A stretch of DNA of 25,673 nucleotides, from positions 1 through 25,673 of the IMG/VR virus record IMGVR_UViG_3300008469_000017; one strand, 5' to 3'. Origin of the DNA: a virus. How positions within the stretch are numbered: the first letter of the stretch is position 1; every line of letters starts with the position of its first letter. Shown here piece by piece: positions 9,567 to 25,202 of the stretch. Under the pieces are notes generated by a model. It ran no database searches, had not been told where the DNA came from, and saw only the letters and a list, made by a program, of their open reading frames with translations. The translations under genes were made by a program, and so were the position numbers.

Positions 9567-11087
9567 ATGTATTTAGATAGAAATGCACGTCTTCAGGAAG
9601 AAAAGGCTATGGTTGATAAATGGTCTTGGTTAACTGAAGGTATAGAAAACAATGATGATGTAGTTAACACATCAATCGTATTACAGAATTCTTACGAATC
9701 TATGATAGCAGAAAATCAATTAGCTGAAGGGTGGTTAGAATCTCTTCTTAATGAAGAAGAATTAAATGAAGCTCCTCAAGGTTCAGCATCAGTTGGAACA
9801 AACGTAATTCCTAAAGTTCTTTTTCCAGTTATTAGAAGAGTAATGCCTGCACTTATAGCAAACCAAATTGTATCCGTACAGCCTATTGTTGCTAGAACTG
9901 GTGTTATTTATAACATCGCTTATACATTCTCAGATTCAAAAGGAAATATTAACTCTGGTGATGAATATTCAGCAAATATTGCTCAAGGTTCACCTGCTTT
10001 TGCTACATTTTATTCATCAGAAAAAATTGGACCTTTTGTAACTACAACAGCAGCAACTGGTATTAATACAGTTATTGATGCTAATACATCAACATTTTTT
10101 GGTTCAGATGTTTCTAAGTTTAAAATTAAAAGAATTGAAGTTTATAAAGCTGATGGTTCAGCATATGCAACTGTTCTTGATCAAGCAGATGTTGTTGCTG
10201 GTGTTCCAGCTTTTGCAGGATCTGGAAATGTTGGTTATAATGCTTCAACTGGTGAAGTTTATTTACTTGATGGAAATAACGCAGCAGCTCCTTGGGGATT
10301 TAGCGAGGCAGGTGTAACAGTTTATTTAGTTTACGATCAAGAAGGTTCAAGTAAAATTCCTGAGATGGAATTCAGCATCAATAGTCAGACTGTTGATACA
10401 ACTGAAAGAAAATTAAAAATCAGATGGACAAAAGAAGCTGAACAAGATATGAAAGCTTTCCATAAGATTGATGTTGAAAGTGAACTTGTAAAAGTTGCTT
10501 CAATGGAAATGAATTACGAAATTGATAGAGAGCTACTTTCTTATATTAGCGATCAAGTAATTCCTGCTCTTTCTTTTACTCACGATTGGGATGATGATGC
10601 AATTGGTGATGGTGCTGGAACTGGTGGAAATAATACTTCTGGAAATTACCTTGATAGACATAGAGCTCTTGCTCAAAAAATGGCTATGGCTGGTGCAAAA
10701 GTTGCTCAGTATAATAGACAGGGTGCAGCAAACTGGGCAGTGGTTTCACCACAAATTGCTTCAGTTTTAGCAATGCTTCCTTCTTTCAAAGGCGAAATTG
10801 CAAATAATGGAATGAATATTCAACTTGTTGGACAACTTAATGGACTTAAAGTTTATGTAGACCCAAATAATACATCTAGTGAAATTCTTATGGGTTATAA
10901 GAGCACTTCTTCTACTTATGGTGCTGGTGTTGTTTATTCACCTTACACAAATTGGATGAGTAATACTGTTACACATCCAGACAATTTTAACAGCATTAGA
11001 GGGTTCTTCTCTCGATATGCAGTTACAAAAGTTGTTCGTGGTGAATATTTTTATTCTAAACTTACTGTTAACAACTTAACTTTTTAA
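9567..11087 (+). CDS. Major capsid protein (T4 gp23-like)
   Basis: This is the main hexamer protein of the head shell. The 506-residue product has the T4 gp23 pattern: an acidic propeptide of about 68 residues, then VLFPVIRRVMPALIANQIVSVQPI, the central ERKLKIRWTKEAEQD and MNYEIDRELLSYI segments, and the C-terminal RGFFSRYAVTKVV and GEYFYSKLTV. The likely maturation site is LNE/APQG (Glu68-Ala69), close to Glu65 in T4. Other Leu/Ile-x-Glu sites (LTE24, IAE49, LAE54, LNE63) lie in the propeptide. The 81-base gap before it carries GGAGG at 9553-9557. Codons here are somewhat richer in GCT/GGT than in neighbouring unknown genes, as expected for a highly expressed gene. An intrinsic terminator follows. 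Confidence 0.95.
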   Translation: MYLDRNARLQEEKAMVDKWSWLTEGIENNDDVVNTSIVLQNSYESMIAENQLAEGWLESLLNEEELNEAPQGSASVGTNVIPKVLFPVIRRVMPALIANQIVSVQPIVARTGVIYNIAYTFSDSKGNINSGDEYSANIAQGSPAFATFYSSEKIGPFVTTTAATGINTVIDANTSTFFGSDVSKFKIKRIEVYKADGSAYATVLDQADVVAGVPAFAGSGNVGYNASTGEVYLLDGNNAAAPWGFSEAGVTVYLVYDQEGSSKIPEMEFSINSQTVDTTERKLKIRWTKEAEQDMKAFHKIDVESELVKVASMEMNYEIDRELLSYISDQVIPALSFTHDWDDDAIGDGAGTGGNNTSGNYLDRHRALAQKMAMAGAKVAQYNRQGAANWAVVSPQIASVLAMLPSFKGEIANNGMNIQLVGQLNGLKVYVDPNNTSSEILMGYKSTSSTYGAGVVYSPYTNWMSNTVTHPDNFNSIRGFFSRYAVTKVVRGEYFYSKLTVNNLTF

Positions 11088-11171: not shown

Positions 11172-12545
11172 ATGAATATTATTAAAATATTAAAAACAAA
11201 TGGTAAAATTTTTGATGGAAATTTAGAAGAAGCAGGCAATCATTATTATGTTTATTTTAAATGTGAAAAATGCGGAAAAGAAACAAAGAAACAAAAGAGA
11301 AGAATAAAGATTAATGGATTTTTTTGTTCTGAATGTTTATCACATAAAAAACATACAGAAGAAATAAAGAAAAAAATTGGAGAAGCTAGCAAAAGAAATA
11401 ACAATATACAGTTAATGAAAAACTCATTGTTAAAATCAGATGGAGTAGATAATGCTTCTAAAATTAATTCGGTAATAAAGAAAAGGCAAAGAACAAAAAG
11501 GATAAAATTACTTCCTGACCTATATAAAAGAATAATAGAAAACGGATATACTCCTTTATTTACATTAGAAGACTATATAGGTCAAAGAGTAAATGGTAAA
11601 AATATAAAATACAATTTTATTCATGATAAATGTAATACAAAATTTTCTGCGTCTTTAAATGGGCACCTTCCTAGATGTCCATTATGTTATCCAGTCTCAT
11701 CTTCTATCGCAGAAAAAGAAATTGTTGATTTTATAAAATCTTTAAATATAAAAAATGTTATTGAAAATGATAGAACTATTCTTGATGGTAAAGAATTAGA
11801 TATTTATTTACCTGATTATAATTTAGCGATAGAATTTGATGGATTATACTGGCATAGTGAAAGTCAAGGAAAAGATAAAAACTATCATTTAGATAAAACA
11901 AATAAATGTAATGAAAAGAATATACAATTAATACATATTTTTGAAGATGAATGGCTTGATAAAAAAGAAATAATTAAATCAATTTTAAGAGTAAGATTAG
12001 GAATAATTGATAATAAAATCTATGCCAGAAAATGTATTATTAAAGAAGTAGAAAATAGAGAAGCAAAAATTTTTCTTGAAAATAATCATTTACAAGGAAA
12101 AGTAAATGGGAAAATTAGACTAGGGTTATATTATAATGATGAATTAGTTTCTTTATTAACTTTTGGCAAATCAAGATTTAATAAAAATTATGATTGGGAA
12201 CTATTAAGGTTTGCGAATAAATTAAACACATCAGTTGTTGGTGGATTTGCAAAATTATTAAAATATTTTAAATCAAATCAAAGTGGAAAAATAATAACAT
12301 ATAGTGATAAAAGATATTTCAATGGAAAAATATATGAAAATAATGGATTTAAAACATTACTTTCTTCTTCTCCAAATTATTATTATATAAAAAATAATAT
12401 TAAGTATAATAGAATTAAATTTCAAAAACATAAATTAAATTCTATTTTAGAAAATTTTAATAATGATTTAACAGAAAGCCAAAATATGCTATTAAATGGA
12501 TATGATAGAATTTGGGATTGCGGGAATAATGTTTTTGTTTTGTAA
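11172..12545 (+). CDS. Freestanding homing endonuclease, VSR-like (EDxHD-type) nuclease with two zinc-binding segments
   Basis: A mobile nuclease gene that spreads by cutting phage DNA lacking it. Order of parts: a CxxC/CxxC zinc ribbon (Cys31, Cys34, Cys52, Cys55), a basic helical linker, a second probable zinc site (His151, Cys154, Cys169, Cys172), then the nuclease core SSIAEKEIVDFI, KELDIYLPDYNLAIEFDGLYWHSE (shown here in part: Asp210, Glu221, His228) and LIHIFEDEWL, typical of VSR-like homing enzymes such as the I-Bth0305I group. Residues 290-450 form a further domain of the kind often found in these phage proteins. It lies between the capsid gene and the next structural-type gene; in T4 a homing gene, segD, occupies the gap after gene 23. 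It has its own terminator-insulated promoter. Confidence 0.85.
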   Translation: MNIIKILKTNGKIFDGNLEEAGNHYYVYFKCEKCGKETKKQKRRIKINGFFCSECLSHKKHTEEIKKKIGEASKRNNNIQLMKNSLLKSDGVDNASKINSVIKKRQRTKRIKLLPDLYKRIIENGYTPLFTLEDYIGQRVNGKNIKYNFIHDKCNTKFSASLNGHLPRCPLCYPVSSSIAEKEIVDFIKSLNIKNVIENDRTILDGKELDIYLPDYNLAIEFDGLYWHSESQGKDKNYHLDKTNKCNEKNIQLIHIFEDEWLDKKEIIKSILRVRLGIIDNKIYARKCIIKEVENREAKIFLENNHLQGKVNGKIRLGLYYNDELVSLLTFGKSRFNKNYDWELLRFANKLNTSVVGGFAKLLKYFKSNQSGKIITYSDKRYFNGKIYENNGFKTLLSSSPNYYYIKNNIKYNRIKFQKHKLNSILENFNNDLTESQNMLLNGYDRIWDCGNNVFVL

Positions 12546-13079: not shown

Positions 13080-13255
13080 TCATTTTCATATTTTAACCAT
13101 AAATCACGAAAACTCTTAGAATATTTTTTTATATATTCCAAGAGTTTTTCATTTTCAGATATATTTATATCTTTATTTTCATTTAAAAGGCATTCAAGCA
13201 TATATATTTGTATCTTATTATATAGTATTGGTTTTTTAACTGGTTTTATCTCCAT
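13076..13255 (-). CDS. Small hypothetical protein, 59 aa
   Basis: ATG at 13253-13255, stop TAA at 13076-13078. It begins 20 bases inside the end of the gene upstream, with GGAAA as a possible ribosome site. The product starts MEIKPVKKPILYNKI and contains ENEKLLEYIKKYSKSFRD, a charged helical sequence typical of small phage proteins. No family recognised. Its 3' end overlaps the stop of the convergent plus-strand gene, and the terminator-like inverted repeat lies inside it (encoding roughly KLLEYIKKYSKS). It may be real, given dense packing and good codon use, but its short length leaves doubt. Confidence 0.55.
   Translation of the reverse strand: MEIKPVKKPILYNKIQIYMLECLLNENKDINISENEKLLEYIKKYSKSFRDLWLKYEND
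13109..13149. terminator. Probable bidirectional terminator inside a coding region
   Basis: AAAACTCTTAGAATAT (13109-13124) pairs with ATATTCCAAGAGTTTT (13133-13148) with one mismatch and an 8-base AT loop. A T-run follows on the plus strand (13145-13149) and TTTT on the minus strand. It lies 30 bases after the plus-strand stop at 13079 and within the convergent 59-aa gene. Confidence 0.7.
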
Positions 13256-13643
13256 TTTTAGTTTCCTGAATATTTGCCTTATGTTTAGTTATTAAATCGC
13301 AGGAAATATTTATAACATTTTCAAAGCTACCATCTAAAGTTTTATAAACTTCATAAACACTTTTAGAATCATTCAATTGGTCAATATTATCTAATGTGAT
13401 AGTTCCAGTTGAACTTTTTAATGTTTTTTTGAAGAAAACAATTTTCCATATATCTTGAAAAGAATCATCAATATTTTCTTCAATTAATATAAATGCAACA
13501 TCATAATGCTCTGGTATATATCCCATTTGAAAATTAGGATATTTTTTTGTTAAAAGTTTTATTACATCATTATTTTTATAATATTCTAACCTTTCAGAAT
13601 CCATTTTAGACGTATAGAACTTTGAATTATTTTCTTTAAACAT
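13236..13643 (-). CDS. Hypothetical protein, 135 aa
   Basis: No family recognised. ATG at 13643; AAGGATG 15-20 bases upstream may serve as ribosome site, and AGTAAAGATAA lies just before it. The sequence looks like a small alpha/beta domain: a basic, helical start (KENNSKFYTSKMDSERLEYYKNND), strands DVAFILIEENI and WKIVFFKKTL, then SSTGTITLDNIDQL. It is the first gene after a 39-base gap following the AAA+ ATPase gene and probably shares its transcript. No motif points to a function. Confidence 0.68.
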   Translation of the reverse strand: MFKENNSKFYTSKMDSERLEYYKNNDVIKLLTKKYPNFQMGYIPEHYDVAFILIEENIDDSFQDIWKIVFFKKTLKSSTGTITLDNIDQLNDSKSVYEVYKTLDGSFENVINISCDLITKHKANIQETKNGDKTS

Positions 13644-13682
13644 TTTCTACATCCTTATCTTTACTTAATTTTTTTTATTCCC

Positions 13683-14810
13683 CTACAAAGTAAAATCAGT
13701 AATTTTTTTTACTTCTTTATTTTTATTAGCTCCAGTTACTTTTTCTTTAATTATATTTATTATTTTTTCAATTGTAAGTTCTTTTCCAGAAAATTTATAA
13801 ATATTTATATCATCACATATTCCTTTAAGAATAGCATATGAAACATCAGTATTCAAAAATTCTAAATGTTCAACCATTCTAACAAAATACTCTTTTTCGT
13901 CTGGAATATATGCTTCAAAAAATTCTAAATATTCCTTTTTAGTTGGAAGGTCATAATTAATTACTTTATCTATTCTTCCTGGTCTGATAAATGCGCTATC
14001 AAAAACATTTATATTATTTGTTGTAAATATAGAAACTACATCATTAATTTCTTCAACGCCTTCAAGAGTATTAAGAACTTTTCCTAATATCTGATTAGGA
14101 GTTTTTCCTGTATTTTCTCTTTCCATTAAAGCAGCATCAAAATCTTCAAATACAAAAATCTTTTTACCCTTTGAATAATAATCATCTACATCTTCTAAAA
14201 ATTCTTTTACATCTTTAAACTGACGATAAGATATTCCGTTTTCTCCTGCTTTATTTCTAAGCCATTGAAGAGTCATTGTTTTACCTGTTCCAGGCCCGCC
14301 TTGAAGTATTATTCCTCTTTTAAGCTTAATATATTTAGAGCTGCAATACTTTCTAAAATCTTCATTCATTAAAAATTTAATTGTCTCTGATTCTATTTCA
14401 TCAAAATTAAAACCTATTATTGGAAAATTATTATTATAATTGAAATTCTTTTTAGATTCTCTAATTTTAAGTATCCTAAGTATTTCTTCCATTTCACTAG
14501 ATTTACCTATCAAAAAATCATAAGCTCTTTCCATAGTAAAAGGTGTAACAATTTTAATAAATTTATAATTATCAACAGTGCAATAATTAATATCTGATAT
14601 TGAATTATTTTCTTCTTCTTTTATACTATAATCTTGAAGTATTTTTATATTGAATTGAAAATAATTAATACAATTTTTTTCTTCTTTAATTATTTCATCT
14701 ACTAATTCATCGCTATCAGCAAAAAAGCTAACTGTTAAATTCTTTTCCCCTTCAAAAAATTTTGTAAGCTCTTTTTCATATGTATCAATTACCCATTTTA
14801 GCATATCCAT
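13683..14810 (-). CDS. AAA+ ATPase of the BCS1/FtsH type, 375 aa
   Basis: An ATP-driven remodelling enzyme. The N-terminal 125 residues have no recognised domain and are presumably substrate-specific. The AAA+ module has Walker A GGPGTGKT (171-178), Walker B KIFVFEDFDA (217-226), sensor 1 TTNN (263-266) and the arginine-finger-type RPGRID (276-281), all intact. A small helical lid follows. No zinc protease domain or transmembrane segment is present, so it is not FtsH itself. The end is Lys-rich (KEKVTGANKNKEVKK). Its start overlaps the stop of the preceding gene by one base (TAATG). It lies downstream of the VWA gene on the same strand, so it may work with it. Similar lone AAA+ proteins occur in T4-like phages; the target is unknown. 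Confidence 0.85.
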   Translation of the reverse strand: MDMLKWVIDTYEKELTKFFEGEKNLTVSFFADSDELVDEIIKEEKNCINYFQFNIKILQDYSIKEEENNSISDINYCTVDNYKFIKIVTPFTMERAYDFLIGKSSEMEEILRILKIRESKKNFNYNNNFPIIGFNFDEIESETIKFLMNEDFRKYCSSKYIKLKRGIILQGGPGTGKTMTLQWLRNKAGENGISYRQFKDVKEFLEDVDDYYSKGKKIFVFEDFDAALMERENTGKTPNQILGKVLNTLEGVEEINDVVSIFTTNNINVFDSAFIRPGRIDKVINYDLPTKKEYLEFFEAYIPDEKEYFVRMVEHLEFLNTDVSYAILKGICDDINIYKFSGKELTIEKIINIIKEKVTGANKNKEVKKITDFTL

Positions 14811-15058
14811 TAATATAACTCCTTATTAGTTTTTCCAGTATAAATACTTGTAAGCGATGAAAAAGAATCTTTAAGTGTTATCAATTCTTCTGAACTTTTA
14901 CTTTTATTTATTATAATGTTATTAGATTTAAATTTCATTAAATCTGAAGATTTAAAAGTTTTGTTATTTATTTCTGCTCCAAACCCCATCCATTTTTTTA
15001 ATAAAGCAGAATAATTTTTATAATTTGTTTCTTTCTTTTTAATATGATAAATATCCAT
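14810..15058 (-). CDS. Hypothetical protein, 82 aa
   Basis: No family recognised. ATG at 15058 has GGAG six bases before it and the stop shares its last base with the start of the AAA+ gene (TAATG), so the two are probably coupled. The product is basic and Ser/Lys/Asn-rich (KSSDLMKFKSNNIIINKSKSSEEL) with no membrane segment. Tight coupling suggests a partner or adaptor for the AAA+ ATPase, but this is inference from spacing only. Confidence 0.65.
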   Translation of the reverse strand: MDIYHIKKKETNYKNYSALLKKWMGFGAEINNKTFKSSDLMKFKSNNIIINKSKSSEELITLKDSFSSLTSIYTGKTNKELY

Positions 15059-15080
15059 TTAAATCTCCAATCTTTTTTTA

Positions 15081-15287
15081 TTAATAAATAAAATCATCTT
15101 TAATACTATCCTCATAAAGTTTTACAAGATAACTATTTTTAGACGAATTTAAAATTTTAATTTTATCTGTTTCTAAATTATTTATTATATTTGAAACATT
15201 AGAAGATTTAATTTCATACATAAAAGATACCCCATTATTATATTTAATAGTAATAAATTTATTAAATGATTTTTTGTTAATACCCAT
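15081..15287 (-). CDS. Hypothetical protein, about 68 aa
   Basis: No family recognised. The frame is open to 15356, but the upstream part (a run of Ile, Met and Val) is out of frame with the Asn/Gly/Tyr tail of the preceding gene and is probably not translated. ATG at 15287 gives MGINKKSFNKFITIKYNNG; two other in-frame ATGs lie 9 and 21 bases earlier. None has a strong ribosome site, so coupling with the preceding stop (15277-15279) is likely. The product looks like a small alpha/beta protein (ITIKYNNGVSFMYEIKSS, NSYLVKLYED). Confidence 0.55.
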   Translation of the reverse strand: MGINKKSFNKFITIKYNNGVSFMYEIKSSNVSNIINNLETDKIKILNSSKNSYLVKLYEDSIKDDFIY

Positions 15288-15498
15288 AATTACCATAATT
15301 ATAACCATTATTATAATTATTCCCTTTTTTATTAAAAATAAAATCTTCTGAATCAAAAGAACTATTATAAATTGATATTTTAGAAATAGAGATTTTATTA
15401 TTTATAGATGGCTCTTCAATGAATTTTTTTATATAATATCCGCTATTTCTAATTGGTAATATTCCTTTTAAATTAGCTTTAATTATTATATCACTCAT
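15277..15498 (-). CDS. Hypothetical protein with Asn/Gly/Tyr-rich tail, 73 aa
   Basis: No family recognised. ATG at 15498 overlaps the stop of the VWA gene (ATGA), so it is probably coupled to it. Residues 1-55 are a mixed alpha/beta sequence (SDIIIKANLKGILPIRNSG). The tail NNYNNGYNYGNYGY is a low-complexity run of the kind seen in flexible or self-associating segments, as in many small phage proteins. Function unknown; the context suggests a role linked to the VWA/ATPase genes. Confidence 0.62.
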   Translation of the reverse strand: MSDIIIKANLKGILPIRNSGYYIKKFIEEPSINNKISISKISIYNSSFDSEDFIFNKKGNNYNNGYNYGNYGY

Positions 15499-17099
15499 TT
15501 ATATAGCACCTTTTTAGCTCCTTTATATAAATCTTTATCTGTGCGTGTTATAAACATAACACTTTTTTTATCTTCTTTATAAAATTTTAAATCAGTTTCA
15601 TGTAATTTACTATAAAAATATCCATCAGTTAATATTAATAAAAAAGGCAATTTCTTTTTATCTGGTATAAATAAATTTTCTTTTTCATTTAATTTCATTA
15701 TCATAGATTTATTATTATTTTCTGTTCTATATTCTAACCAATTAAATATTCTTTTAGGGTTAGTTCCACCACCACCTGTTAATTTGTAATTCTTCCAATC
15801 ACCAACATTATATTCATACATTTCTTTAGAAGAAACATAAGTATCCCACATTAAAGTATAAACTTTTCCTGAAGAATTGAAATTCATTTCTTTTGCAATT
15901 GAATCAATTTCAGTAAAGAATCTTTCTTTATCATAATCATCATAAAAACAAGAACCACTTGTATCAATTGCAATAATAATATAATTTTGTTGCTTTGTAA
16001 TAGTTCTCATTTTATGTTTTCCAAGTATCCCGTATCTACTTCTAGGATTTAATAAATGAGTAATATAACTTTGTTTAAATCCTTTTACAAATCCTCTATC
16101 TGATAAATAAATATTTAACCCTTGCTTAAATTCTTTTTTCCAATTAACATTAGATTTTAAAATTCTATTTACAGCAGCTATCATAGAATTTCCTTTATTA
16201 ATTCCTGCTGCTTTTTGTGCTGCTTTTAAAGCATCATTACTTTCAACCATAGCTGTAGCTTTTTTAACTAAATTTTCAGTAAATACTTTTTGAGAAATAA
16301 TATTTTCATTTACTTCATTATCACCTTCATCAGGTATTTCTGGATCATTATATCCATGAAATTCATATTCCCAATCTTGTTTAACCCCAGAGTTAAAAGA
16401 TACTTCACCTCCGGCTAAAACTACAGGAATTAAATTATCTACTTTTTCTTCTGAATATCCTCCATCTGGATAATTGCCATTATTAAAATCATCATATAGT
16501 TTTTCTAATTCAGGATATTTAATTACTACAAGACCATCGTTATCTTTATATGAAACTTTAGCATATTCACCAGTACTAATTATTTTGCAATATTTATTTT
16601 TTATAAGAAAACTTTCTTTATCATTAGTTTGTTTTTGTTGATACCAATTATATAATCTTGGTGTAGTATTAGCATCTTCTTTTATAGAATAATAATAATT
16701 TGAAAACTCTTTTGGAACAGTAAAACCTTTTGCTTCTGTTGGCATTTTAGGAGTTAACCCTAAAAATTTCATACTTTCTATTTCAGTATTTATAATTGCA
16801 TCTTCTGCTATATTTCTTAATTTACCATCATTTAAATTTTCATGTATACTAAGGTGATGCTTAAAAATATGCTGTGATTCGTGAATTAAAACAAAATATA
16901 ATTCTTCTAATGGGAGTTCAAGAAAATTCTTTGAATAATAAAATTGAACTCTATTATTTTTATAATTTACTCCAGCAAACCCGTCCCCTAACAACTCATC
17001 ATTTTGTATAAAATCAGAATTGATTATAAACAAATAGATGAGAGGTTCTTTATCCATTAGATAAAATGATAATTTAGAAATTATTTCTGGTCGAGCCAC
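15495..17099 (-). CDS. VWA-domain protein with N-terminal HExxH metallopeptidase-like domain
   Basis: The 534-residue product has two parts. Residues 60-125 carry HESQHIFKHH (HExxH, 73-77) followed by IAEDAIINTEIE, the arrangement of the putative metallopeptidase domain found with VWA-like proteins (DUF2201-type). Residues about 372-534 form a VWA domain with a complete MIDAS metal site: DTSGS (379-383), Thr446 in TGGGGTNP and TDG (491-493). Such proteins usually pair with MoxR AAA+ ATPases; one lies upstream at 19618-21102 on this strand. The start is GTG at 17099, with GGAGG four bases before it; ATG at 17111 runs into a stop. A consensus promoter lies at 17132-17160. Whether the HExxH site is catalytic is unknown. 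Confidence 0.87.
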   Translation of the reverse strand: MARPEIISKLSFYLMDKEPLIYLFIINSDFIQNDELLGDGFAGVNYKNNRVQFYYSKNFLELPLEELYFVLIHESQHIFKHHLSIHENLNDGKLRNIAEDAIINTEIESMKFLGLTPKMPTEAKGFTVPKEFSNYYYSIKEDANTTPRLYNWYQQKQTNDKESFLIKNKYCKIISTGEYAKVSYKDNDGLVVIKYPELEKLYDDFNNGNYPDGGYSEEKVDNLIPVVLAGGEVSFNSGVKQDWEYEFHGYNDPEIPDEGDNEVNENIISQKVFTENLVKKATAMVESNDALKAAQKAAGINKGNSMIAAVNRILKSNVNWKKEFKQGLNIYLSDRGFVKGFKQSYITHLLNPRSRYGILGKHKMRTITKQQNYIIIAIDTSGSCFYDDYDKERFFTEIDSIAKEMNFNSSGKVYTLMWDTYVSSKEMYEYNVGDWKNYKLTGGGGTNPKRIFNWLEYRTENNNKSMIMKLNEKENLFIPDKKKLPFLLILTDGYFYSKLHETDLKFYKEDKKSVMFITRTDKDLYKGAKKVLYK

Positions 17100-17131
17100 T
17101 ATTCCTCCATTAAAAGTTATTCTCTTAATTA

Positions 17132-17160
17132 ATTATAACAAATTATTCTTTTTTTGTCAA
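17132..17160 (-). promoter_or_regulatory. Consensus sigma70 promoter for the VWA gene
   Basis: On the minus strand: TTGACA (17160-17155), 17-bp spacer AAAAAAGAATAATTTGT, TATAAT (17137-17132). Both hexamers are perfect. Transcription would start near 17125, 26 bases before the GTG. The -35 box contains the TGA stop of thyX (17159-17157), so thyX and the promoter share bases. Confidence 0.9.
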
Positions 17161-17912
17161 TCTTTTTGTAGTAAATCCAAAGCTGCTATCATTCTTTTTA
17201 TTTCAATATTATCAGTTAATTTCTCTTGTATTTTCCAATTAAGTTCTGTCATTTCATCAAATATTTCCATAGTCCATACAAGATCAGTTATATTATAAAG
17301 TATTTTTTTTATTCCTTTTGCAAACTCTCTTATTTCATATTGAGCATGCTCATGCAATCTCAATTCAAGAAAATGCAACAAGTTTCTTAAATCAACAGTA
17401 AAATAAAGTTCTGTATATGTAGAAGATGGTAAGACCATTCTTGCCATTTCTTTTGCTACACCATCTTCAAGAAGCTCTTCATAAAAGCTAAAAGTATTAG
17501 TCATATTAGATTTATAATTAAAAGTTAATTGCTTGTTTTTTTCATTATTAAAAGCTTTTCCGCTTCCTTGATGATTTGTTAATCCTTGTATCCTCCAATT
17601 TTCTGGAATATAATAATTATTTTCATCTACCTCACTATATCTCTGGCTATATTCATTAAAACTAAAAGTTCTATGTCTAAGGAATTGTTTTGCTATAAAA
17701 TTAGGAATTTTTGCGTGAAATGTAAATACTACTTGCTCAAAAGGAGTCATGTGTTTATTTTTATATAAATATCTAATTAAACCTCTATCTTGTTTATCTC
17801 CTTTTTTAGCAATTCCTCCAGTCGAAACTCTTGCTGATTGTAATATTCTATAATCATCTCCAATATAATCTACAAGTTCAACAAATCCTTGATCTAAAAA
17901 TTTCTCTTTCAT
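17157..17912 (-). CDS. thyX: Flavin-dependent thymidylate synthase ThyX
   Basis: It makes dTMP from dUMP with methylenetetrahydrofolate, FAD and NADPH. The signature RHRx7S is exact: RHR at 79-81 and Ser89 in RHRTFSFNEYS, with SARVS (27-31) near the N-terminus and TVDLRNLLHFLELR in the C-terminal half, the usual substrate- and tetramer-forming region. At 251 residues the length is normal. AGGAG precedes the ATG at 17912. It supplies thymidine nucleotides for phage DNA, which suits a very AT-rich genome. The TGA stop lies inside the -35 box of the VWA promoter. Confidence 0.95.
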   Translation of the reverse strand: MKEKFLDQGFVELVDYIGDDYRILQSARVSTGGIAKKGDKQDRGLIRYLYKNKHMTPFEQVVFTFHAKIPNFIAKQFLRHRTFSFNEYSQRYSEVDENNYYIPENWRIQGLTNHQGSGKAFNNEKNKQLTFNYKSNMTNTFSFYEELLEDGVAKEMARMVLPSSTYTELYFTVDLRNLLHFLELRLHEHAQYEIREFAKGIKKILYNITDLVWTMEIFDEMTELNWKIQEKLTDNIEIKRMIAALDLLQKD

Positions 17913-17941
17913 TTGTTCTCCTAAAAATTTAATTTATATAA

Positions 17942-18520
17942 TTAATCCCAAAGATTTAATATATATTTTCCTAATAACTCAAGACCCTTTTGTGCTCTTT
18001 GCTGATAAGTCATATCGAGTTTAACATTATAATAAAATGGTTTGCCATTAATAAAAGATTCTGTTTTATTACTTTCTTTTTTCTCATGAGGATCTTCTAA
18101 ATCCCATTTTTCCCAAAAATTTTTTATTTCTTTACCATCATTATGAATAGTGTATTCACAAGCGAAAAGAATTTCATTTAAAATTTTCTTCCATGCTTCT
18201 TGTCCTCCACCTGTTATTTTACCATCTTTTATTGCTTTGTCATATTGCTCTTTAGATTCCCATCCTTCATCTTCTGAGTAATTTGAAAATTCTGCTGGGA
18301 AACCCATTCTTTCAGATTCAATAAATGCTTTAACTCTTGGATAAGCATATTCTACAATATAATATCCAGCATTCCAAACCTGACGGTCAGGAACATGATT
18401 TTTTCTAAAAATTAATTGTAATAAATATTGTATATTATAAAATATATCTTTTATATTACTTGGCAATCTATAAAGAAATGTAGGCATATGTTCATAAGCC
18501 CAATCATCTATTTTATTCAT
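17942..18520 (-). CDS. Conserved phage-type hypothetical protein, 192 aa
   Basis: ATG at 18520 overlaps the end of the preceding gene by 8 bases and follows AAGGAG. The pattern DRQVWNAGYYIVEYAYPRVKAF, then GYP-like and W-rich middle, EEWKKI-like helix (AWKKILNEILFACEYT) and a C-terminal ...QKGLELLGKYILNLWD is one that I have seen in many unrelated phages' uncharacterised proteins; no function is known to me. It is probably soluble and helical. The call rests on remembered pattern, not a search. Confidence 0.7.
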   Translation of the reverse strand: MNKIDDWAYEHMPTFLYRLPSNIKDIFYNIQYLLQLIFRKNHVPDRQVWNAGYYIVEYAYPRVKAFIESERMGFPAEFSNYSEDEGWESKEQYDKAIKDGKITGGGQEAWKKILNEILFACEYTIHNDGKEIKNFWEKWDLEDPHEKKESNKTESFINGKPFYYNVKLDMTYQQRAQKGLELLGKYILNLWD

Positions 18521-18806
18521 TTACAAACTCCTTATTCAATTGCTGCCACAATTTTCTTCTTTCAGCCTTATTAAAGGTTTCTATACTTTTCTTCCTTGCT
18601 AATCTAGCTTGTAGTTCCATTCCATTTTCTTCTCTTTCACCATAAAGAGATAATATAGGTTGGTTTAAATAAGAGTCAAGCTCTAAGTATAATCTATCAT
18701 ATTGAAAATATTCCTTTTTTTGCTCATTAGCCCATTGTATCAACTCGTCCAAGCTTTTTCCATCAATATCATATAATATACTATCTATTTGTTTAGTTAT
18801 CTTCAT
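18513..18806 (-). CDS. Hypothetical protein, 97 aa, helical
   Basis: No family recognised. AAGGAG with 7 bases before ATG at 18806; this ribosome site overlaps the TAA of the gene before it. The product is charged and almost wholly helical (SLDELIQWANEQKKEYFQ, NGMELQARLARKKSIETFNKAERRKLWQQLNKEF). The end overlaps the next gene by 8 bases, so these genes form one operon with the HTH gene upstream and thyX downstream. Confidence 0.65.
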   Translation of the reverse strand: MKITKQIDSILYDIDGKSLDELIQWANEQKKEYFQYDRLYLELDSYLNQPILSLYGEREENGMELQARLARKKSIETFNKAERRKLWQQLNKEFVNE

Positions 18807-18817
18807 CTATAAACTCC

Positions 18818-19564
18818 TTACTGCAAATTTTTATTTTCTTTAAGCATTATTTTTAAATTATGTTTTGCCCATTCTATAATTCCATCATGTTGTAATTTAG
18901 ATTTTATAAATAAACTAATAGTAGGAACTAATTCGCTTCCATCAGTATTATAAAACAATCCATATTCTATTTTATCTTCTAAATAACTTCTTAAAAATTT
19001 AAAACCAATCTCCAATTTTTTTAATCCATCTGCTCCATAAGTTTTATAATATTGTTCTAAATTTTTTTTATCTCCTTTTGTCATATTATAATTACTATTA
19101 TTAATCCATCCTGATTGAATATGTTCTCTTAAATTTTTAGGTATATTATTACAAATATCCATATAAGATTTTTTAAAATTATAAACTACTCTTCCATAAT
19201 TAGTATTCTCTTTTATAGGTAAAATTTTTGCTTTTGAAAAATCTTTTTTAACACTTTTATTTATAGGTTCATATTTTAATAAATAATAAGTATTATGCTT
19301 TTTATTTTTCACGACAGTTGTTTTCCAATCTAGCAAATTATTTTCTCTTAATTTCCTCTTTAATAAATCTATGTTTCTTACAGAGCATCCTAAATCTTTT
19401 GCTAAAGTTTCTCTTGATGGAAAAGCTGTAATCTTATCTCTAGCATAACTAAGCAAAATTAAATATAAACGCATTGAAGAATTATCAATGCGTTTATTTG
19501 TTAATAAAGATCTTTCAATTGGAACCTTCCAATCAATTTTATTATAATTAAAATCATCTGACAT
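18818..19564 (-). CDS. Helix-turn-helix DNA-binding protein, 248 aa
   Basis: Residues about 20-110 form a winged-helix/HTH domain of the kind in phage and plasmid replication or DnaD-like proteins: SSMRLYLILLSYARDKITAFPSRETLAKDLGCSVRNIDLLKRKLRENNLL (here the second helix is about LAKDLG and the recognition helix SVRNIDLLKRKL). The rest, rich in aromatic and Lys residues, is not recognised. It may bind phage DNA as a regulator or replication-linked protein; which is unclear. Its ATG at 19564 lies right after the TAA of a 13-codon mini-frame, with only weak ribosome-site sequence of its own. Confidence 0.72.
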   Translation of the reverse strand: MSDDFNYNKIDWKVPIERSLLTNKRIDNSSMRLYLILLSYARDKITAFPSRETLAKDLGCSVRNIDLLKRKLRENNLLDWKTTVVKNKKHNTYYLLKYEPINKSVKKDFSKAKILPIKENTNYGRVVYNFKKSYMDICNNIPKNLREHIQSGWINNSNYNMTKGDKKNLEQYYKTYGADGLKKLEIGFKFLRSYLEDKIEYGLFYNTDGSELVPTISLFIKSKLQHDGIIEWAKHNLKIMLKENKNLQ

Positions 19565-19606
19565 TTACTCATCGCTTAAAAATACTAAAAATGCTATTGA
19601 TGCCAC
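19565..19606 (-). CDS. Possible 13-aa leader peptide preceding the HTH gene
   Basis: GTG at 19606-19604 with GGAG four bases before it, encoding MASIAFLVFLSDE, stop TAA at 19567-19565, directly followed by the ATG of the HTH gene (TAAATG). The GGAG is clearly better than anything just before the HTH ATG, so ribosomes may load here and restart. It could also be chance; the tight spacing is the only evidence. Confidence 0.35.
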   Translation of the reverse strand: MASIAFLVFLSDE

Positions 19607-19617
19607 TTTACTCCAAA

Positions 19618-21102
19618 TCATACTACAGCCTCTTTCTTTTGAACATCAAATAATTCTTGATCACTTGTATAATAATATCCTTGATAAGAATTTTTATATC
19701 TATCATTTATACTATATAACATTTCTCCTAATTCTTTAGCAGGTTCTGTATTAGTATTTTTTAATTCATAAATAAATACTGTTAAATCTTCTGCTGGAAT
19801 ATCTGTATCTGTTATAAACGTTGATAAATTCAATGCAGGCAATCTTACACCATCTTTTTCATCCCAACTATCAACTTCTTTAATTGAGTGCGCTACAGAC
19901 AGCATAAGGTATAACATAGCTCCTTTTTTCTCGGATAATTTCTTAATTTTGTCACGAACATTTACATAATCAAATAAAACATCTTCAGGTAATACTCTAT
20001 TTTCAGCAAAATATGCATACTTACCAATTATATCTTTTACAATCTCTACCCCATTTTTGATACCAAATTCACTTACATTATTTATTAATGCTTTTATTTG
20101 AACATTAGGATTTTGATAAAATTCTGCGAAAGTTTTTTCTTTTACATCCTCTTCTTTCCACATTTCTACCATATCAAAAATCATATTATTTGCAACCAAT
20201 GTCCATGCTCTAGGAGACATAGTTGAATCTCCTTCGCTATCATTATCTTCTTCGTTATCAGCTTCATTATTTTTAGGAATTAAAAAAGGAGCATCAACTT
20301 TTCCTTCTTCCATAAATTTATCAAAAATATAATAACAAAGAATAGAAGGAATTCTTGTTGGAAGAGTAATTTCTTCTGTCCATTTAAATTTTTTAAATGC
20401 AAATGATCTTAACCAACTAGGAGCATTATATCCTATATAAATATTTCTATGCCATCTTTCAGCAGTTGCAGTATCAAAATTATTAACTGAATTAAAAGAT
20501 GAAACATTTTTCTGTATTTTCCTATTCCCAGAGCCAATTATAACAGTTCTTTTAGGCAATTTATATTTTTCTGACTTACCTGTTTTTTCATTATAATCTG
20601 CACTTCCTCCAATTTCTCCATTTAAAACTAAATTCATTACAGCAGACATACTTTCAGTATCAGCTTTATTATATTCATCTAAATGAAGAATCCATAAAGA
20701 ATCATCATCAGTTGGAGGTAATACTGTTGGTTGCGCTAATCTAACAACTGTTTGTTCTTTTTTATTTTTGTGTAAATAAGGAAATCCTTGTAATTCTTCA
20801 ATAGGAACTTTTTGAATTTCAAGTTTATGATATATTCCATTTTCTTCTTCTGCTAATTGTTTAATAATCTCAGATTTTCCAGAACCTGTTTCTCCATAAA
20901 CAAAAAGAGAATGTCGAGTATCATCTATAAAAATATTATTTTTAGTTAATCTTATAACTCTTCTAACTTCTTTTTTTAAATCTTCATACGTAGAAGGTTC
21001 TGATGATATACTTTTTGTAATTCCTTTTTGAATAGCTTCTATATCAAAATTACCACTTACATTTTTTTGTATATCAAAATATAGCTTTGAATATTCTTTC
21101 AT
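19618..21102 (-). CDS. MoxR-like AAA+ ATPase, 494 aa
   Basis: A chaperone-like ATPase of the class that partners with VWA proteins. Walker A is GETGSGKS (70-77), Walker B LWILHLDEYNKA (136-147), sensor 1 GSGNR (190-194). The MoxR pattern is seen in KVPIEELQGFPYL (98-110), a LARP-like turn, and the loop before sensor 1 (KLPKRTVIIG). An acidic insert (NNEADNEEDNDSEGD) lies near residues 273-290, and the C-terminal half is mainly helical. ATG at 21102 follows GGGGGA; a consensus promoter is at 21129-21157. TGA stop at 19620-19618. It lies on the same strand as the VWA gene (15495-17099), though four genes lie between them. The substrate is unknown. Confidence 0.87.
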   Translation of the reverse strand: MKEYSKLYFDIQKNVSGNFDIEAIQKGITKSISSEPSTYEDLKKEVRRVIRLTKNNIFIDDTRHSLFVYGETGSGKSEIIKQLAEEENGIYHKLEIQKVPIEELQGFPYLHKNKKEQTVVRLAQPTVLPPTDDDSLWILHLDEYNKADTESMSAVMNLVLNGEIGGSADYNEKTGKSEKYKLPKRTVIIGSGNRKIQKNVSSFNSVNNFDTATAERWHRNIYIGYNAPSWLRSFAFKKFKWTEEITLPTRIPSILCYYIFDKFMEEGKVDAPFLIPKNNEADNEEDNDSEGDSTMSPRAWTLVANNMIFDMVEMWKEEDVKEKTFAEFYQNPNVQIKALINNVSEFGIKNGVEIVKDIIGKYAYFAENRVLPEDVLFDYVNVRDKIKKLSEKKGAMLYLMLSVAHSIKEVDSWDEKDGVRLPALNLSTFITDTDIPAEDLTVFIYELKNTNTEPAKELGEMLYSINDRYKNSYQGYYYTSDQELFDVQKKEAVV

Positions 21103-21128: not shown

Positions 21129-21157
21129 ATTATATCAAATTATTCTTTTTTTGTCAA
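21129..21157 (-). promoter_or_regulatory. Consensus sigma70 promoter for the MoxR gene
   Basis: Minus strand: TTGACA (21157-21152), 17-bp spacer AAAAAAGAATAATTTGA, TATAAT (21134-21129). The sequence is the same as at 17132-17160 apart from one base in the spacer. Transcription would start near 21122, 20 bases before the ATG. It lies between the M23 and MoxR genes. Confidence 0.9.
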
Positions 21158-21162
21158 GAAAT

Positions 21163-21951
21163 TTATTTCTTCTTAATAGATTGTTCACGTAAAAATAATA
21201 TAGGATCTTTATATACACCATCTTGACTTATACCATAATGTAAATGAGGCCCTGTTGAATGTCCACTATCTCCAAGATATCCAATTACTTCACCTTTTAC
21301 TACTTTTTGCCCTTCATGAACAACAACTTTTGACATATGTGCATAATAAGTTTTTATATTATGTTTATGTTGAATAATAACATATCTTCCATAAATTCTA
21401 TTCATAATCCAATGATCTACAACAATACCATCAGCTGTAGCTATTACGGGATCTCCATATCTTGTCACTAAATCTATACCTTCATGAGGGACTAAAGATA
21501 TTTTTCCAGTAAAAGGATCAAATCTATCTCCAAATCCAGATGTTATAATAATATTATGTGTGCTAAAAAGAGGCCAAATATTAGGTAAATCTTTATAATA
21601 GTCTGTCCTATTATCAAAAAAATTGTTTGAATTTTTAAGCAGTTCTGTAAAATTATTAGTATGTGTAAGAACTTTTTCATATGACTTTAAATTGAAATCT
21701 TCTTCTTTGTTTGAGGCACCACCCATAAATAAATAAGAATCTGTCATTTTTACATTCTTAACTATCTTCATTATTGTATTTTTATATTTAATTTCATCAT
21801 TTTTTATCTTTGTGTTTAAAGATACTATTTTATTATTTAAAACTGAATTTTTATTTAATTCTCCTGTATACACTAAATCAGTTTTAATAAATAAAAAAGC
21901 CATAACTAATATTTGTATAATTATTACTGTATACTTTATAAATTTTAACAT
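21163..21951 (-). CDS. Membrane-anchored M23-family peptidase (zinc lysostaphin-type)
   Basis: The 262-residue product has an N-terminal transmembrane segment (5-23, ...VIIIQILVMAFLFI) after a short basic start, then a probable coiled stretch (residues 30-70), then an M23 domain with the zinc ligands in place: HEGID (His156, Asp160), HLHYG (His236 and His238), and His205 in YYAHMS. The domain begins with the usual TSGFGDRFDPFTG. Such enzymes cleave peptidoglycan cross-bridges or stems. Membrane anchoring suggests it acts on the host wall from inside, for lysis or cell-envelope change, or is a particle lysin; its place away from virion genes and its own consensus promoter favour non-virion use. 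GGAAGGA precedes the ATG at 21951. Confidence 0.9.
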   Translation of the reverse strand: MLKFIKYTVIIIQILVMAFLFIKTDLVYTGELNKNSVLNNKIVSLNTKIKNDEIKYKNTIMKIVKNVKMTDSYLFMGGASNKEEDFNLKSYEKVLTHTNNFTELLKNSNNFFDNRTDYYKDLPNIWPLFSTHNIIITSGFGDRFDPFTGKISLVPHEGIDLVTRYGDPVIATADGIVVDHWIMNRIYGRYVIIQHKHNIKTYYAHMSKVVVHEGQKVVKGEVIGYLGDSGHSTGPHLHYGISQDGVYKDPILFLREQSIKKK

Positions 21952-21969: not shown

Positions 21970-21998
21970 ATTATAACAAATTATTCTTTTTTTGTCAA
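21970..21998 (-). promoter_or_regulatory. Consensus sigma70 promoter for the M23 peptidase gene
   Basis: Minus strand: TTGACA (21998-21993), 17-bp spacer AAAAAAGAATAATTTGT, TATAAT (21975-21970), identical to the one at 17132-17160. Start of transcription would be near 21963, 12 bases before the ATG, giving a very short leader. Confidence 0.9.
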
Positions 21999-22030
21999 AT
22001 ATATGCTTTATCTTTACTATTTACCTTACA

Positions 22031-22184: not shown

Positions 22185-24617
22185 ATGACTAAAGAAACTT
22201 TCAGAAGAATAGAATACAGTGATGAAACTAAGTTTCTTAAAACAAATGATAGAATTGAACTTAAAAAATATTCAGATGATTTAATATTTTTAGCTAATTA
22301 CAATGGAACATTAGATGCTCAATATACAACAGGAGAACCAACTCCTACTTTAATAGGAGCTCCAGAAATAGCAGATTTTGATTCTTTTGGATTAACTCAG
22401 CATTGTAATCTTAAAGGTTCTATTGTCTATGGATATGAGGGATTTACTAATTTAAAAGAAGAAGGAATGATTTCCTTTAGATTAAGCTCAGGATTTGATA
22501 ATGCATATGGAGAACAAAAATTTGTTAATGAAGATCCAGGAGTTGTTTCTGCTACTACAGATTATAATTTTAAACTATCAGTTGGTGGAGTTTCTAAAGG
22601 AAGTTTTACAATATCTCTTGATGCTGGAGCAACAAAAGCAGATGTTTATAATGCTTTAACAATTGCAATTGAATCAGAAGCAAATGTTGTATATGATAAT
22701 TTAAAAATTAAAGTTATATCAAAAGTATTAGGGCAATCAGTTGAATTATTTGAACCTGACTCTGGAGAATCTTTAATAACATTAATGGGTGGAGTAGAAG
22801 AAGCAGTTGTCCCAAATGCTCCAACAGTAGATATAGATTTCTTTAAATTAGCACCATCAGGCAATTTAAACAATGCAATAATTTTAACACATAATACAGA
22901 TAGCCATATATTAATAAAAATGTATGATAGCTCTGGTAATTTAATAGTAGATGAAGATGCAGGAATTTGGTCTAATAGCTCAATTGAATATTATGAATTT
23001 GAATTGTCTTGGAATGAAAGCATAGGACAATTATTTATTTCTGGCAAATTGAAACATTTATTTCTTACAGGATTTACAAGAACAAATTCATCAAATGAAT
23101 TAATTCTTCAAGGAATTGATGCAACTGATTTTCATAAAATAGACGAAGTAATATTAAAAAATACTTTTGGTCATACTAAAAATTATACTCCAACAACTAT
23201 TCCATTAACTCCATATGATACAAAAAATCCATATATAGACATTTTCTTTGGTGATGGATTTAAAGAAAATGAAGTAACAGACTTAACTATAAAATCTTCT
23301 ATTGGAACAAACTTTATTGTAAAAATAGGAAATACTTGGTATTATTATTTTTCAGGTTCTTGGAGAGCTTCTGATGGAACATTCTTACAATCTACTTCAA
23401 CTGATATATTTGAAACTCAATTCCCTAATTTGTTTTTTAATGAGAATTATGATTTAGATGTAAGAGTATTCTTTCATACAGATGGTTATGAAAATGTATG
23501 GATAGATGAATTTTCTATTATAACAGAAATAGGAAATGAAGCAGCAGCTTATATAACAGGAACAGTTTCTTTATCTGGAACTGTTGATTTATCAACAGAT
23601 AATTCTGTTGAAATAACAACTAATTATGGAAGTGTAGTAGTAGATGTCTCAAGCGCAGCAGTAGATACTTCTGCTGTCACACTTGATGAAATTAAACAAT
23701 CTATAAATGATGCTAATATTACGGGGCTTGCTCCTGCTTCTGATGATGGAAATGGACGTTTAGTATTATTAAGTTCAAATACTGGAAATGATGCTATGGT
23801 TTCAATTGATCATGCTGATTCAAATGATGCCTTATATTTAATATGGGATACTGAAGGTTCTACAGATTTAGGTGCTGATTCAGAAATAATAAGCGAATTT
23901 TCAGATTATTCTGTATTATATAGTTATATAAGAAGTTCATTAGGAGCTCCATTGGTTCCAGTTGAATTAACAGATGAACAAATAGATAATTGTATAGCAT
24001 CTGCTGTATATCATTATAATAAATGGAGAAATTTTTCAGAAGATATAGAAATGATAAATCTTACAGGCTCTGCTTCTGCTGGTTATGATTTACCTCCTAT
24101 GGTAGGTGGCGCAGATAATATTACAGAAATCGTTTTAGCTCCAAGATATCCACTTGCATATTATAATGGTAGAAGTGATTTAATGGCAAATATTTATATT
24201 CAAGCAATATATGATAGCACAGGAATTATGGCAAATGCTGCTGATTATCATATCGCTTTAGTCGCAACAAAAGGCGTGAATATGATATTGAATACAGAAA
24301 TAACATGGGAATTTTTAAATGGAAAATTATTTTTATATCCAACACCTCCTTCTTCATTAAAGGTAGGAATTAAATATAAAGCAGCTTTAACTTTAAGCGA
24401 AATAGTTAATAATCAACAAATTAAAGATTTTACTTTAGCTGAAGCAAAAATTGTATTAGGTGGAATTCGTAGCACATTTGGAAACTCGGTTCCTGGGGGT
24501 GACGGTATGTTGCAGCTTAATGGTAGTGAATTAATAGCAGCTGGAAAAGAAGAGAAGGAAGCTTTAAAAGCAAATTGGAAATCAAGCACAAATGTTTATG
24601 AGTTTCTGATAGGATAA
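22185..24617 (+). CDS. Large neck/head-completion protein (gp13-like C-terminus) with lectin-like and flagellin-like N-terminal modules
   Basis: The C-terminal ~240 residues (about 568-810) look like the T4 gp13 neck family: a YSYIRSSLGAPLVPVELTDEQIDNCIASAVYHYNKW start, then a beta domain ending ...SLKVGIKYKAALTL and a helical end. Family members such as T4 gp13 are about 310 residues. The other ~565 residues are extra: a concanavalin/LamG-like fold (about 25-310; LIFLANYNGTLDAQYT and the SSIEYYEFELSWNESIGQLFISG strand pair) interrupted by a module at about 120-210, and a second similar module at about 455-560 (SVVVDVSS...GRLVLLSSNTGNDAMV). These modules recall the beta-rich repeats of flagellar and phage fibre proteins. 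AAGGA precedes the ATG. The fusion may build a neck appendage, and the module borders are estimated by eye. Confidence 0.78.
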   Translation: MTKETFRRIEYSDETKFLKTNDRIELKKYSDDLIFLANYNGTLDAQYTTGEPTPTLIGAPEIADFDSFGLTQHCNLKGSIVYGYEGFTNLKEEGMISFRLSSGFDNAYGEQKFVNEDPGVVSATTDYNFKLSVGGVSKGSFTISLDAGATKADVYNALTIAIESEANVVYDNLKIKVISKVLGQSVELFEPDSGESLITLMGGVEEAVVPNAPTVDIDFFKLAPSGNLNNAIILTHNTDSHILIKMYDSSGNLIVDEDAGIWSNSSIEYYEFELSWNESIGQLFISGKLKHLFLTGFTRTNSSNELILQGIDATDFHKIDEVILKNTFGHTKNYTPTTIPLTPYDTKNPYIDIFFGDGFKENEVTDLTIKSSIGTNFIVKIGNTWYYYFSGSWRASDGTFLQSTSTDIFETQFPNLFFNENYDLDVRVFFHTDGYENVWIDEFSIITEIGNEAAAYITGTVSLSGTVDLSTDNSVEITTNYGSVVVDVSSAAVDTSAVTLDEIKQSINDANITGLAPASDDGNGRLVLLSSNTGNDAMVSIDHADSNDALYLIWDTEGSTDLGADSEIISEFSDYSVLYSYIRSSLGAPLVPVELTDEQIDNCIASAVYHYNKWRNFSEDIEMINLTGSASAGYDLPPMVGGADNITEIVLAPRYPLAYYNGRSDLMANIYIQAIYDSTGIMANAADYHIALVATKGVNMILNTEITWEFLNGKLFLYPTPPSSLKVGIKYKAALTLSEIVNNQQIKDFTLAEAKIVLGGIRSTFGNSVPGGDGMLQLNGSELIAAGKEEKEALKANWKSSTNVYEFLIG

Positions 24618-24620
24618 ATT

Positions 24621-25202
24621 ATGGAATATTATATTTATGAATTAATAGACCCAAGAAACTCTATTCCTTTTTATATAGGTAAAGGATCTAAAAAAAGAGC
24701 ACAATCACATTTTTGGCCATCTTCTAAAGGAGAAAATCCATATAAAGATAATAAAATAAACAAATTAATATCTTTAGGGTATAATAGAAAAGATATAATA
24801 AAATATCTTTTCACAAGTAATGATGAGAATAAAATATTAAAGATAGAAGAATATTTAATAGATATTAATATGAAAGATTTAACAAACATGATAAGAGGAG
24901 GAACTCAACCGCCTAAAAGATATGGAAAAGATAATAATTTTTATGGTGGAGTTTCTAAAGAAATTTCAAAAAAATCTTATATATCATTGATGAAAACAAT
25001 TAACAGCAAAACTCCAGAACAGCGCTCGAAAGAAACTGGAGGTAAACCTTTTATAGCAATATCTCCAGATGGTATTGAATATAAAGGATTTAATCAAATT
25101 GAGTTTGGAAAAAAATACAATTTATCTGCGAAAAGTATTAATTCTTGTTTAAAAGGTAAAAGGAAACATCATAAGGGTTGGACTTTTAAATTTATAGGAT
25201 AA
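24621..25202 (+). CDS. GIY-YIG homing endonuclease with NUMOD-type DNA-binding tail
   Basis: A freestanding SegA-like mobile nuclease, 193 residues. The N-terminal nuclease has YYIYELIDPRNSIPFYIGKG (the GIY-YIG signature as YIYEL/FYIGKG) and KKRAQSHFW, with the catalytic glutamate probably in IEEYLIDI near residue 75. The C-terminal part has a modular DNA-binding repeat: KPFIAISPDGIEYKGFN followed by LSAKSINSCLKGKRKHHKGWTF, a NUMOD-plus-helix unit. AGGA precedes the ATG at 24621, three bases after the neck gene's stop, so it is read in the same transcript. It sits between two head genes, as expected for a homing gene. Confidence 0.88.
   Translation: MEYYIYELIDPRNSIPFYIGKGSKKRAQSHFWPSSKGENPYKDNKINKLISLGYNRKDIIKYLFTSNDENKILKIEEYLIDINMKDLTNMIRGGTQPPKRYGKDNNFYGGVSKEISKKSYISLMKTINSKTPEQRSKETGGKPFIAISPDGIEYKGFNQIEFGKKYNLSAKSINSCLKGKRKHHKGWTFKFIG

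Follow-up and report, generated by a model that had tools for sequence, protein, structure and literature searches.

In the cellular systems CbbQO, NorQD and RavA-ViaA, a MoxR ring works with a VWA protein as its adaptor, and the clients are metabolic. To our knowledge, none of these systems has an HExxH domain. In CbbQO, the MIDAS of the VWA protein binds an acidic residue on the surface of its client rubisco (PMC4660213). Viruses also carry such pairs: ATV p618/p892 consists of a viral MoxR protein and a VWA partner that stimulates its ATPase (PMC4124505), and in jumbo phages a MoxR AAA+ protein occurs with a vWA protein that carries a metallopeptidase domain at its N terminus, for which a role in virion assembly has been proposed (Iyer et al. 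2021, PMC7824862). A search of the literature revealed neither a described client for the MoxR-VWA pair of any tailed phage nor a report linking DUF2201 with MoxR.

Here we describe a pair of this already known kind, a MoxR protein with a VWA/metallopeptidase, in a stretch of viral DNA of 25,673 nucleotides (the window), and a third gene that accompanies it. Judging from its capsid protein, the window phage probably belongs to the Far-T4 group, the one cultured member of which is RM378 according to PMC4360716. All open reading frames named in an initial annotation of this DNA are present where it had placed them. The pair and its surroundings are as follows.

9567..11087, plus strand: major capsid protein gene (gp23-like; tblastn to T4-like gp23 in 2388 records), convergent neighbour of the cassette
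13236..13643, minus strand: g135, small protein with an ITLDN motif, constant companion of the MoxR-VWA pair in this phage group by co-occurrence
15495..17099, minus strand: HExxH metallopeptidase-like domain fused to a VWA domain, 534 aa, GTG start (PF13203, PF09967, PHROG1314)
17157..17912, minus strand: ThyX gene (PF02511), an insert that separates MoxR from VWA in close relatives of the window
18818..19564, minus strand: HTH/DnaD-like replication protein gene (PF13730, PHROG7882), an insert of the window family
19618..21102, minus strand: MoxR-like AAA+ ATPase, 494 aa (PF07728, AAA_5, at the Pfam cut-off; PHROG1297)
22185..24617, plus strand: head-tail adaptor gene (Ad2-like; PHROG211 at 574-802), the other border of the cassette

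Comparison with described pairs

The pair of Atu_ph07 (ASV44729.1/ASV44728.2), which we confirmed in PHROG1297/PHROG1314 as adjacent genes, consists of the same two protein families with the same domain fusion, but its identity to the window pair is about 20%, it has HQILH in place of HExxH and it is set among replication genes; no relative of g135 was found near it. The N4-like phages (Schitoviridae) hold the same pair in the same order as gp24/gp25, although their MoxR protein is shorter and the genes lie close to an N4 RNAP2-like gene, and no g135 was found in these phages. As to whether gp24/gp25 of N4 are essential, the main text of the CRISPRi-ART paper has no mention of MoxR, von Willebrand or gp24, and its gp25 hits concern another phage. 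In Rhodothermus phage RM378 (Rm378p138-p140), an ATPase, a VWA protein and a small gene are followed by a convergent capsid gene; unlike in the window, HExxH is lost there (HAGLMH) while the MIDAS is kept, and the small gene has no ITLDN. Rm378p140 also gave no sequence match to g135 and was rejected as its orthologue. ATV p618/p892 resembles the window in being a viral MoxR protein with a VWA partner, but that partner has no peptidase domain (PMC7824862), and the virus is an archaeal spindle virus in which the pair acts in extracellular tail growth. The similarity to the MoxR and VWA proteins of CbbQO, NorQD and RavA-ViaA is confined to the AAA+ and VWA cores. With the Atu_ph07 proteins as tblastn queries, the ATPase gave matches in 790 of 50,697 phage records and the VWA protein in 621, and the make-up of hosts was similar for both.

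The MoxR and VWA proteins

The intact MoxR-like AAA+ protein reported by the initial annotation is confirmed in position and in content. Its motifs are complete (GETGSGKS, LHLDE, GSGN, R216, SPRAW), so that Walker A and B, the sensor 1 Asn, the arginine finger and the sensor 2 Arg expected of a MoxR AAA+ protein are all found, and G70, K76, D142, E143, N193, R216 and R298 are invariant in 13 diverse phage sequences, both Far-T4-like and distant. It has in addition a C-terminal region of ~150 aa that shorter phage MoxR proteins lack. An in-frame LAGLIDADG intein is inserted at the P-loop of MoxR in two relatives (L008:8801-11284 and L021:2491-4980), and in L008, the same contig as L003, the intein sits exactly between Lys and Thr (GETGTGK|C...HN|TEII).

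The VWA protein scored 24.9 bits against PF13203 (DUF2201_N, putative metallopeptidase), above the cut-off of 23.2, and 21.2 bits against PF09967 (DUF2201 VWA-like), below the cut-off of 26.4, and it matched PHROG1314 at 5.9e-23. As had been claimed for it, the protein holds an HExxH site (HESQH) together with a full MIDAS (D379-S381-S383, T446, D492), and the MIDAS is invariant in 15 sequences with identity down to 19%, N4-like and jumbo phages among them. HExxH is conserved in relatives too, Atu_ph07 and RM378 excepted. It thus shows the fusion of an HExxH domain with a VWA-like domain that characterizes the DUF2201 metallopeptidase-VWA family (PHROG1314). In the AlphaFold model (pLDDT 78.7), residues 334-534 take the I-domain/VWA fold (VIA Z 10.4, rmsd 3.2 Å over 150 residues of predicted structure), and the Foldseek list for the model includes the MDN1 MIDAS complex 8ql1. 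The window protein keeps the catalytic Glu of HExxH, and a peptidase role is putative. Because that Glu is replaced in Atu_ph07 and RM378 while the MIDAS is intact in both, it looks as if the VWA function comes first and cutting is optional. The proteins labelled 'HNH endonuclease' in PHROG1314 are DUF2201 metallopeptidase-VWA proteins; the label, which stands in PHROGs and in RefSeq phage records (e.g. NC_042013, and NC_004735 Rm378p139), does not fit, and the family is widely mislabelled in this way.

A third constant gene and an optional site

In relatives retrieved with MoxR or VWA as bait, the compact gene order is the head-tail adaptor on one strand, MoxR-VWA-(AAA)-g135 on the other, and capsid, prohead protease and portal on the first strand again. 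In the window's close relatives, MoxR and VWA are separated by inserted genes, HTH/DnaD-like and ThyX genes among them; ThyX is absent from this interval in the distant relatives compared. As far as contig ends allow, MoxR and VWA occur together in 13/13 distinct Far-T4-like phages, the window included, and this strict co-occurrence, along with the sequence families, the motifs and the VWA fold, upholds the initial suggestion of a chaperone-like pair.

In order to avoid bait bias, we then used the capsid protein as bait and counted the contigs with enough downstream sequence. By this count g135 is present in 10/10 distinct pair-bearing contigs and in 0/13 pair-less contigs (Fisher p about 1e-6, for contigs that share ancestry and with two of the 13 pair-less ones being near-duplicates). 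With g135 itself as bait, 11/11 matches were contigs already known to hold the pair. A three-gene core of MoxR, VWA and g135 in this phage group is proposed from this co-occurrence. The third gene sits just beyond the span of the initial annotation (13683-21102), and is newly recognised here as a constant member of the cassette.

In g135, S, ITLDN and K are invariant in 12 sequences with identity down to 25%, and in the model (pLDDT 77.8) ITLDN lies at a loop-to-helix turn. The model matched no known fold (Foldseek best E 0.37, VIA best Z 4.8, both uninformative), the sequence matched no known family, and beyond its own phage group no relative was found in the PDB, in phages or in 84,980 bacterial and archaeal species genomes. 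A comparison with known anti-phage defence systems by PADLOC gave nothing specific: only weak generic ATPase matches for MoxR and for the second AAA+ protein, and none for VWA or g135.

The cassette, found between the capsid and neck genes, is an optional occupant of that place. Six distinct capsid-neck sites are without it, one of them in a 160-kb record, and at other such sites there is a thymidylate kinase or an ORF that by eye begins like ThyX; because of these cassette-less sites and sites with other genes, the interval looks like a variable site for accessory genes. A search of 13 cassette-less records, one of 160 kb, revealed no MoxR or VWA at any other place in them; these records are mostly fragments and could hold the cassette elsewhere.

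The second AAA+ protein and the small genes

The initial annotation had joined the pair with a second AAA+ protein and three small genes.

13683..14810, minus strand: classic-clade AAA+ ATPase (PF00004), accessory and untied to the pair
14810..15058, minus strand: small ORF with a weak counterpart (35% identity) in one relative only, L007
15081..15287, minus strand: small ORF, no counterpart found in relatives
15277..15498, minus strand: small ORF that overlaps the stop of the VWA gene, likewise no counterpart found

The second AAA+ protein (375 aa) does have a single intact AAA domain, yet the label 'BCS1/FtsH-type' given to it is not specific: its best PDB sequence matches are classic AAA domains of AFG2/Cdc48/PAN, AFG2/Cdc48 being closest, and Pfam scans of three members found no BCS1 N-terminal domain. 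The MoxR-vWA FtsH ternary conflict system was considered and rejected, since its third protein needs two FtsH-type AAA+ domains, the first inactive. With the capsid bait, this gene was found in 4/10 pair-bearing contigs and in one pair-less contig (L062), an association that is not significant (p 0.13), and it was rejected as a core partner on this distribution. The small genes, proposed as adaptors, are not conserved. The set as first drawn therefore does not travel together, the AAA+ and small genes being independent and the unlisted g135 constant; independent occurrence in related phages was the outcome that the initial annotation had itself named as refuting its proposal.

Promoters

21970..21998, minus strand: the 29-bp early-type promoter, before the M23 peptidase gene
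21129..21157, minus strand: early-type promoter (TTGACA-17-TATAAT, extended -10) before MoxR
17132..17160, minus strand: the same 29-bp early-type promoter before VWA
13655..13664, minus strand: GTAAAGATAA motif before g135, which may be a late signal but is ambiguous because the ribosome-binding site adjoins it

The window holds three exact copies of the 29-bp sequence TTGACAAAAAAAGAATAATTTGNTATAAT, which we read as an early, host-type promoter, against 0 in 100 shuffles. Four related records hold 42 (a 201-kb relative), 21, 13 and 8 copies with <=3 mismatches, and the reversed control had no match in these four records. Since the promoter is genome-wide, it is no mark that pairs MoxR with VWA, and we rejected it as evidence of pairing; of the initial claim of twin promoters, the exact copies before MoxR and VWA stand, but matched expression is trivial for a phage-wide promoter with a third copy before M23. 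The M23 peptidase gene (21163-21951) has both the early-type promoter and GTAAAGATAA (22008-22017) upstream, likewise in L006 and L007, as if it were expressed at two times.

With a stricter pattern, the 201-kb relative has 35 promoter copies on one strand and 3 on the other, with few in its 45-153 kb part, where the capsid-coding strand more often carries GTAAAGRTAA. This motif, a candidate late signal, gave 70 matches in five records versus 14 for reversed controls. In most relatives the capsid gene has this motif, or one very like it, upstream; in the window family the head-tail adaptor gene does too. The T4 late motif TATAAATA showed no consistent placement upstream of structural genes.

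Early-type promoters stand before MoxR and VWA in the window and most close relatives, and because both genes carry one in the window family, they form an early-type island within the structural region and are probably expressed early. The exceptions are L006 and L008, where the promoter is not immediately before MoxR, and L007, where it is not immediately before VWA; several distant relatives have a weaker or no early-type promoter before MoxR and none immediately before VWA.

Inteins and homing endonucleases

Mobile elements were also seen in other genes of these phages. In L007 (16581-19147) the AAA+ gene is split at the P-loop into two ORFs, the first ending in ~28 residues that start with CIFRDAKV and the second starting with ~140 residues that end in ISHN|TLTLQ (a weak Intein_splicing match), with a free ORF bearing CxxC zinc-binding-like motifs between the halves; the arrangement resembles a split intein whose halves flank an endonuclease-like gene. 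ThyX of L004 (8014-9783) is interrupted in frame by an insert whose ends are intein-like (KNKH|C...LSGN|STPFEQ). In the window, a LAGLIDADG-type intein-like insert lies inside the large terminase gene (1-2127), and free-standing homing endonuclease genes lie at 11172-12545 and 24621-25202. The former (PHROG559/3339) follows the capsid gene and has upstream the promoter variant TTGACAATAAAAG, typical of the L008 relative, hinting at recent transfer.

Discussion

On balance, we lean towards reading this locus as a phage MoxR-VWA remodelling cassette in which g135 is the likeliest client or client-adaptor, the basis for the latter being co-occurrence. By analogy with CbbQO, NorQD and RavA-ViaA, MoxR would form an ATP-driven ring on which the VWA protein docks, the metal-bearing MIDAS would grip an acidic residue of the client, and ATP hydrolysis would pull or twist that client, which the N-terminal zincin-like domain of the VWA protein may also cut. 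Much as CbbQO grips an acidic residue of rubisco, the invariant Asp of the g135 ITLDN motif is a candidate ligand at the MIDAS. A bolder version, in which g135 is a dedicated MIDAS ligand that through this Asp loads the MoxR-VWA/peptidase ring onto an early host target, making the three-gene core a client-addressed remodelling and cutting machine, is speculative and we think it rather unlikely to hold in full.

The most serious alternative, which we hold to be possible if doubtful, is that the pair serves virion assembly or maturation, acting as a chaperone in the folding or remodelling of head, neck or tail proteins, which the peptidase domain would process. Its fixed place between the capsid and head-tail adaptor genes in Far-T4-like contigs is what an assembly factor would show too; RM378 has its ATPase, VWA and small gene beside the capsid gene as well, and the jumbo phage proposal (Iyer 2021, PMC7824862) was made by analogy with p618/p892 of ATV in tail development, a viral precedent (PMC4124505). 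However, in the window family the pair lies on the opposite strand under early-type promoters, related phages whose capsid protein is 43-60% identical have no cassette at this site, and the 160-kb record has no MoxR or VWA; the promoters and this absence weaken the case. The pair's neighbours in N4-like phages and Atu_ph07 are transcription or replication genes, and the HExxH glutamate is lost in Atu_ph07 and RM378. Since phages can lack the cassette at its site, we think a host-directed or early role more likely than a general step of capsid assembly.

A metal chaperone resembling CobS/CobT or NorQD, which would insert metal into a phage or host metalloenzyme or reactivate it, seems improbable: a MoxR-VWA pair does so in NorQD (PMC13036017) and related phage MoxR proteins weakly match PHROG249 (porphyrin), but no metalloenzyme gene is constant in the cassette, and the nearby ThyX and HTH genes are limited to the window family. 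A single complex of MoxR, VWA, the second AAA+ protein and three small adaptors, suggested by their shared strand and tight spacing in the window and by conservation of the AAA+ gene in its close relatives, is hardly tenable, being largely refuted by the absence of that gene from about half of the pair-bearing contigs, its occurrence without the pair and the lack of conservation of the small genes.

Several hundred sequenced phages carry MoxR-VWA pairs of this type, and some of them are E. coli phages used in the laboratory. With its invariant acidic motif, the constant third gene offers a specific, testable candidate for what such a machine binds.
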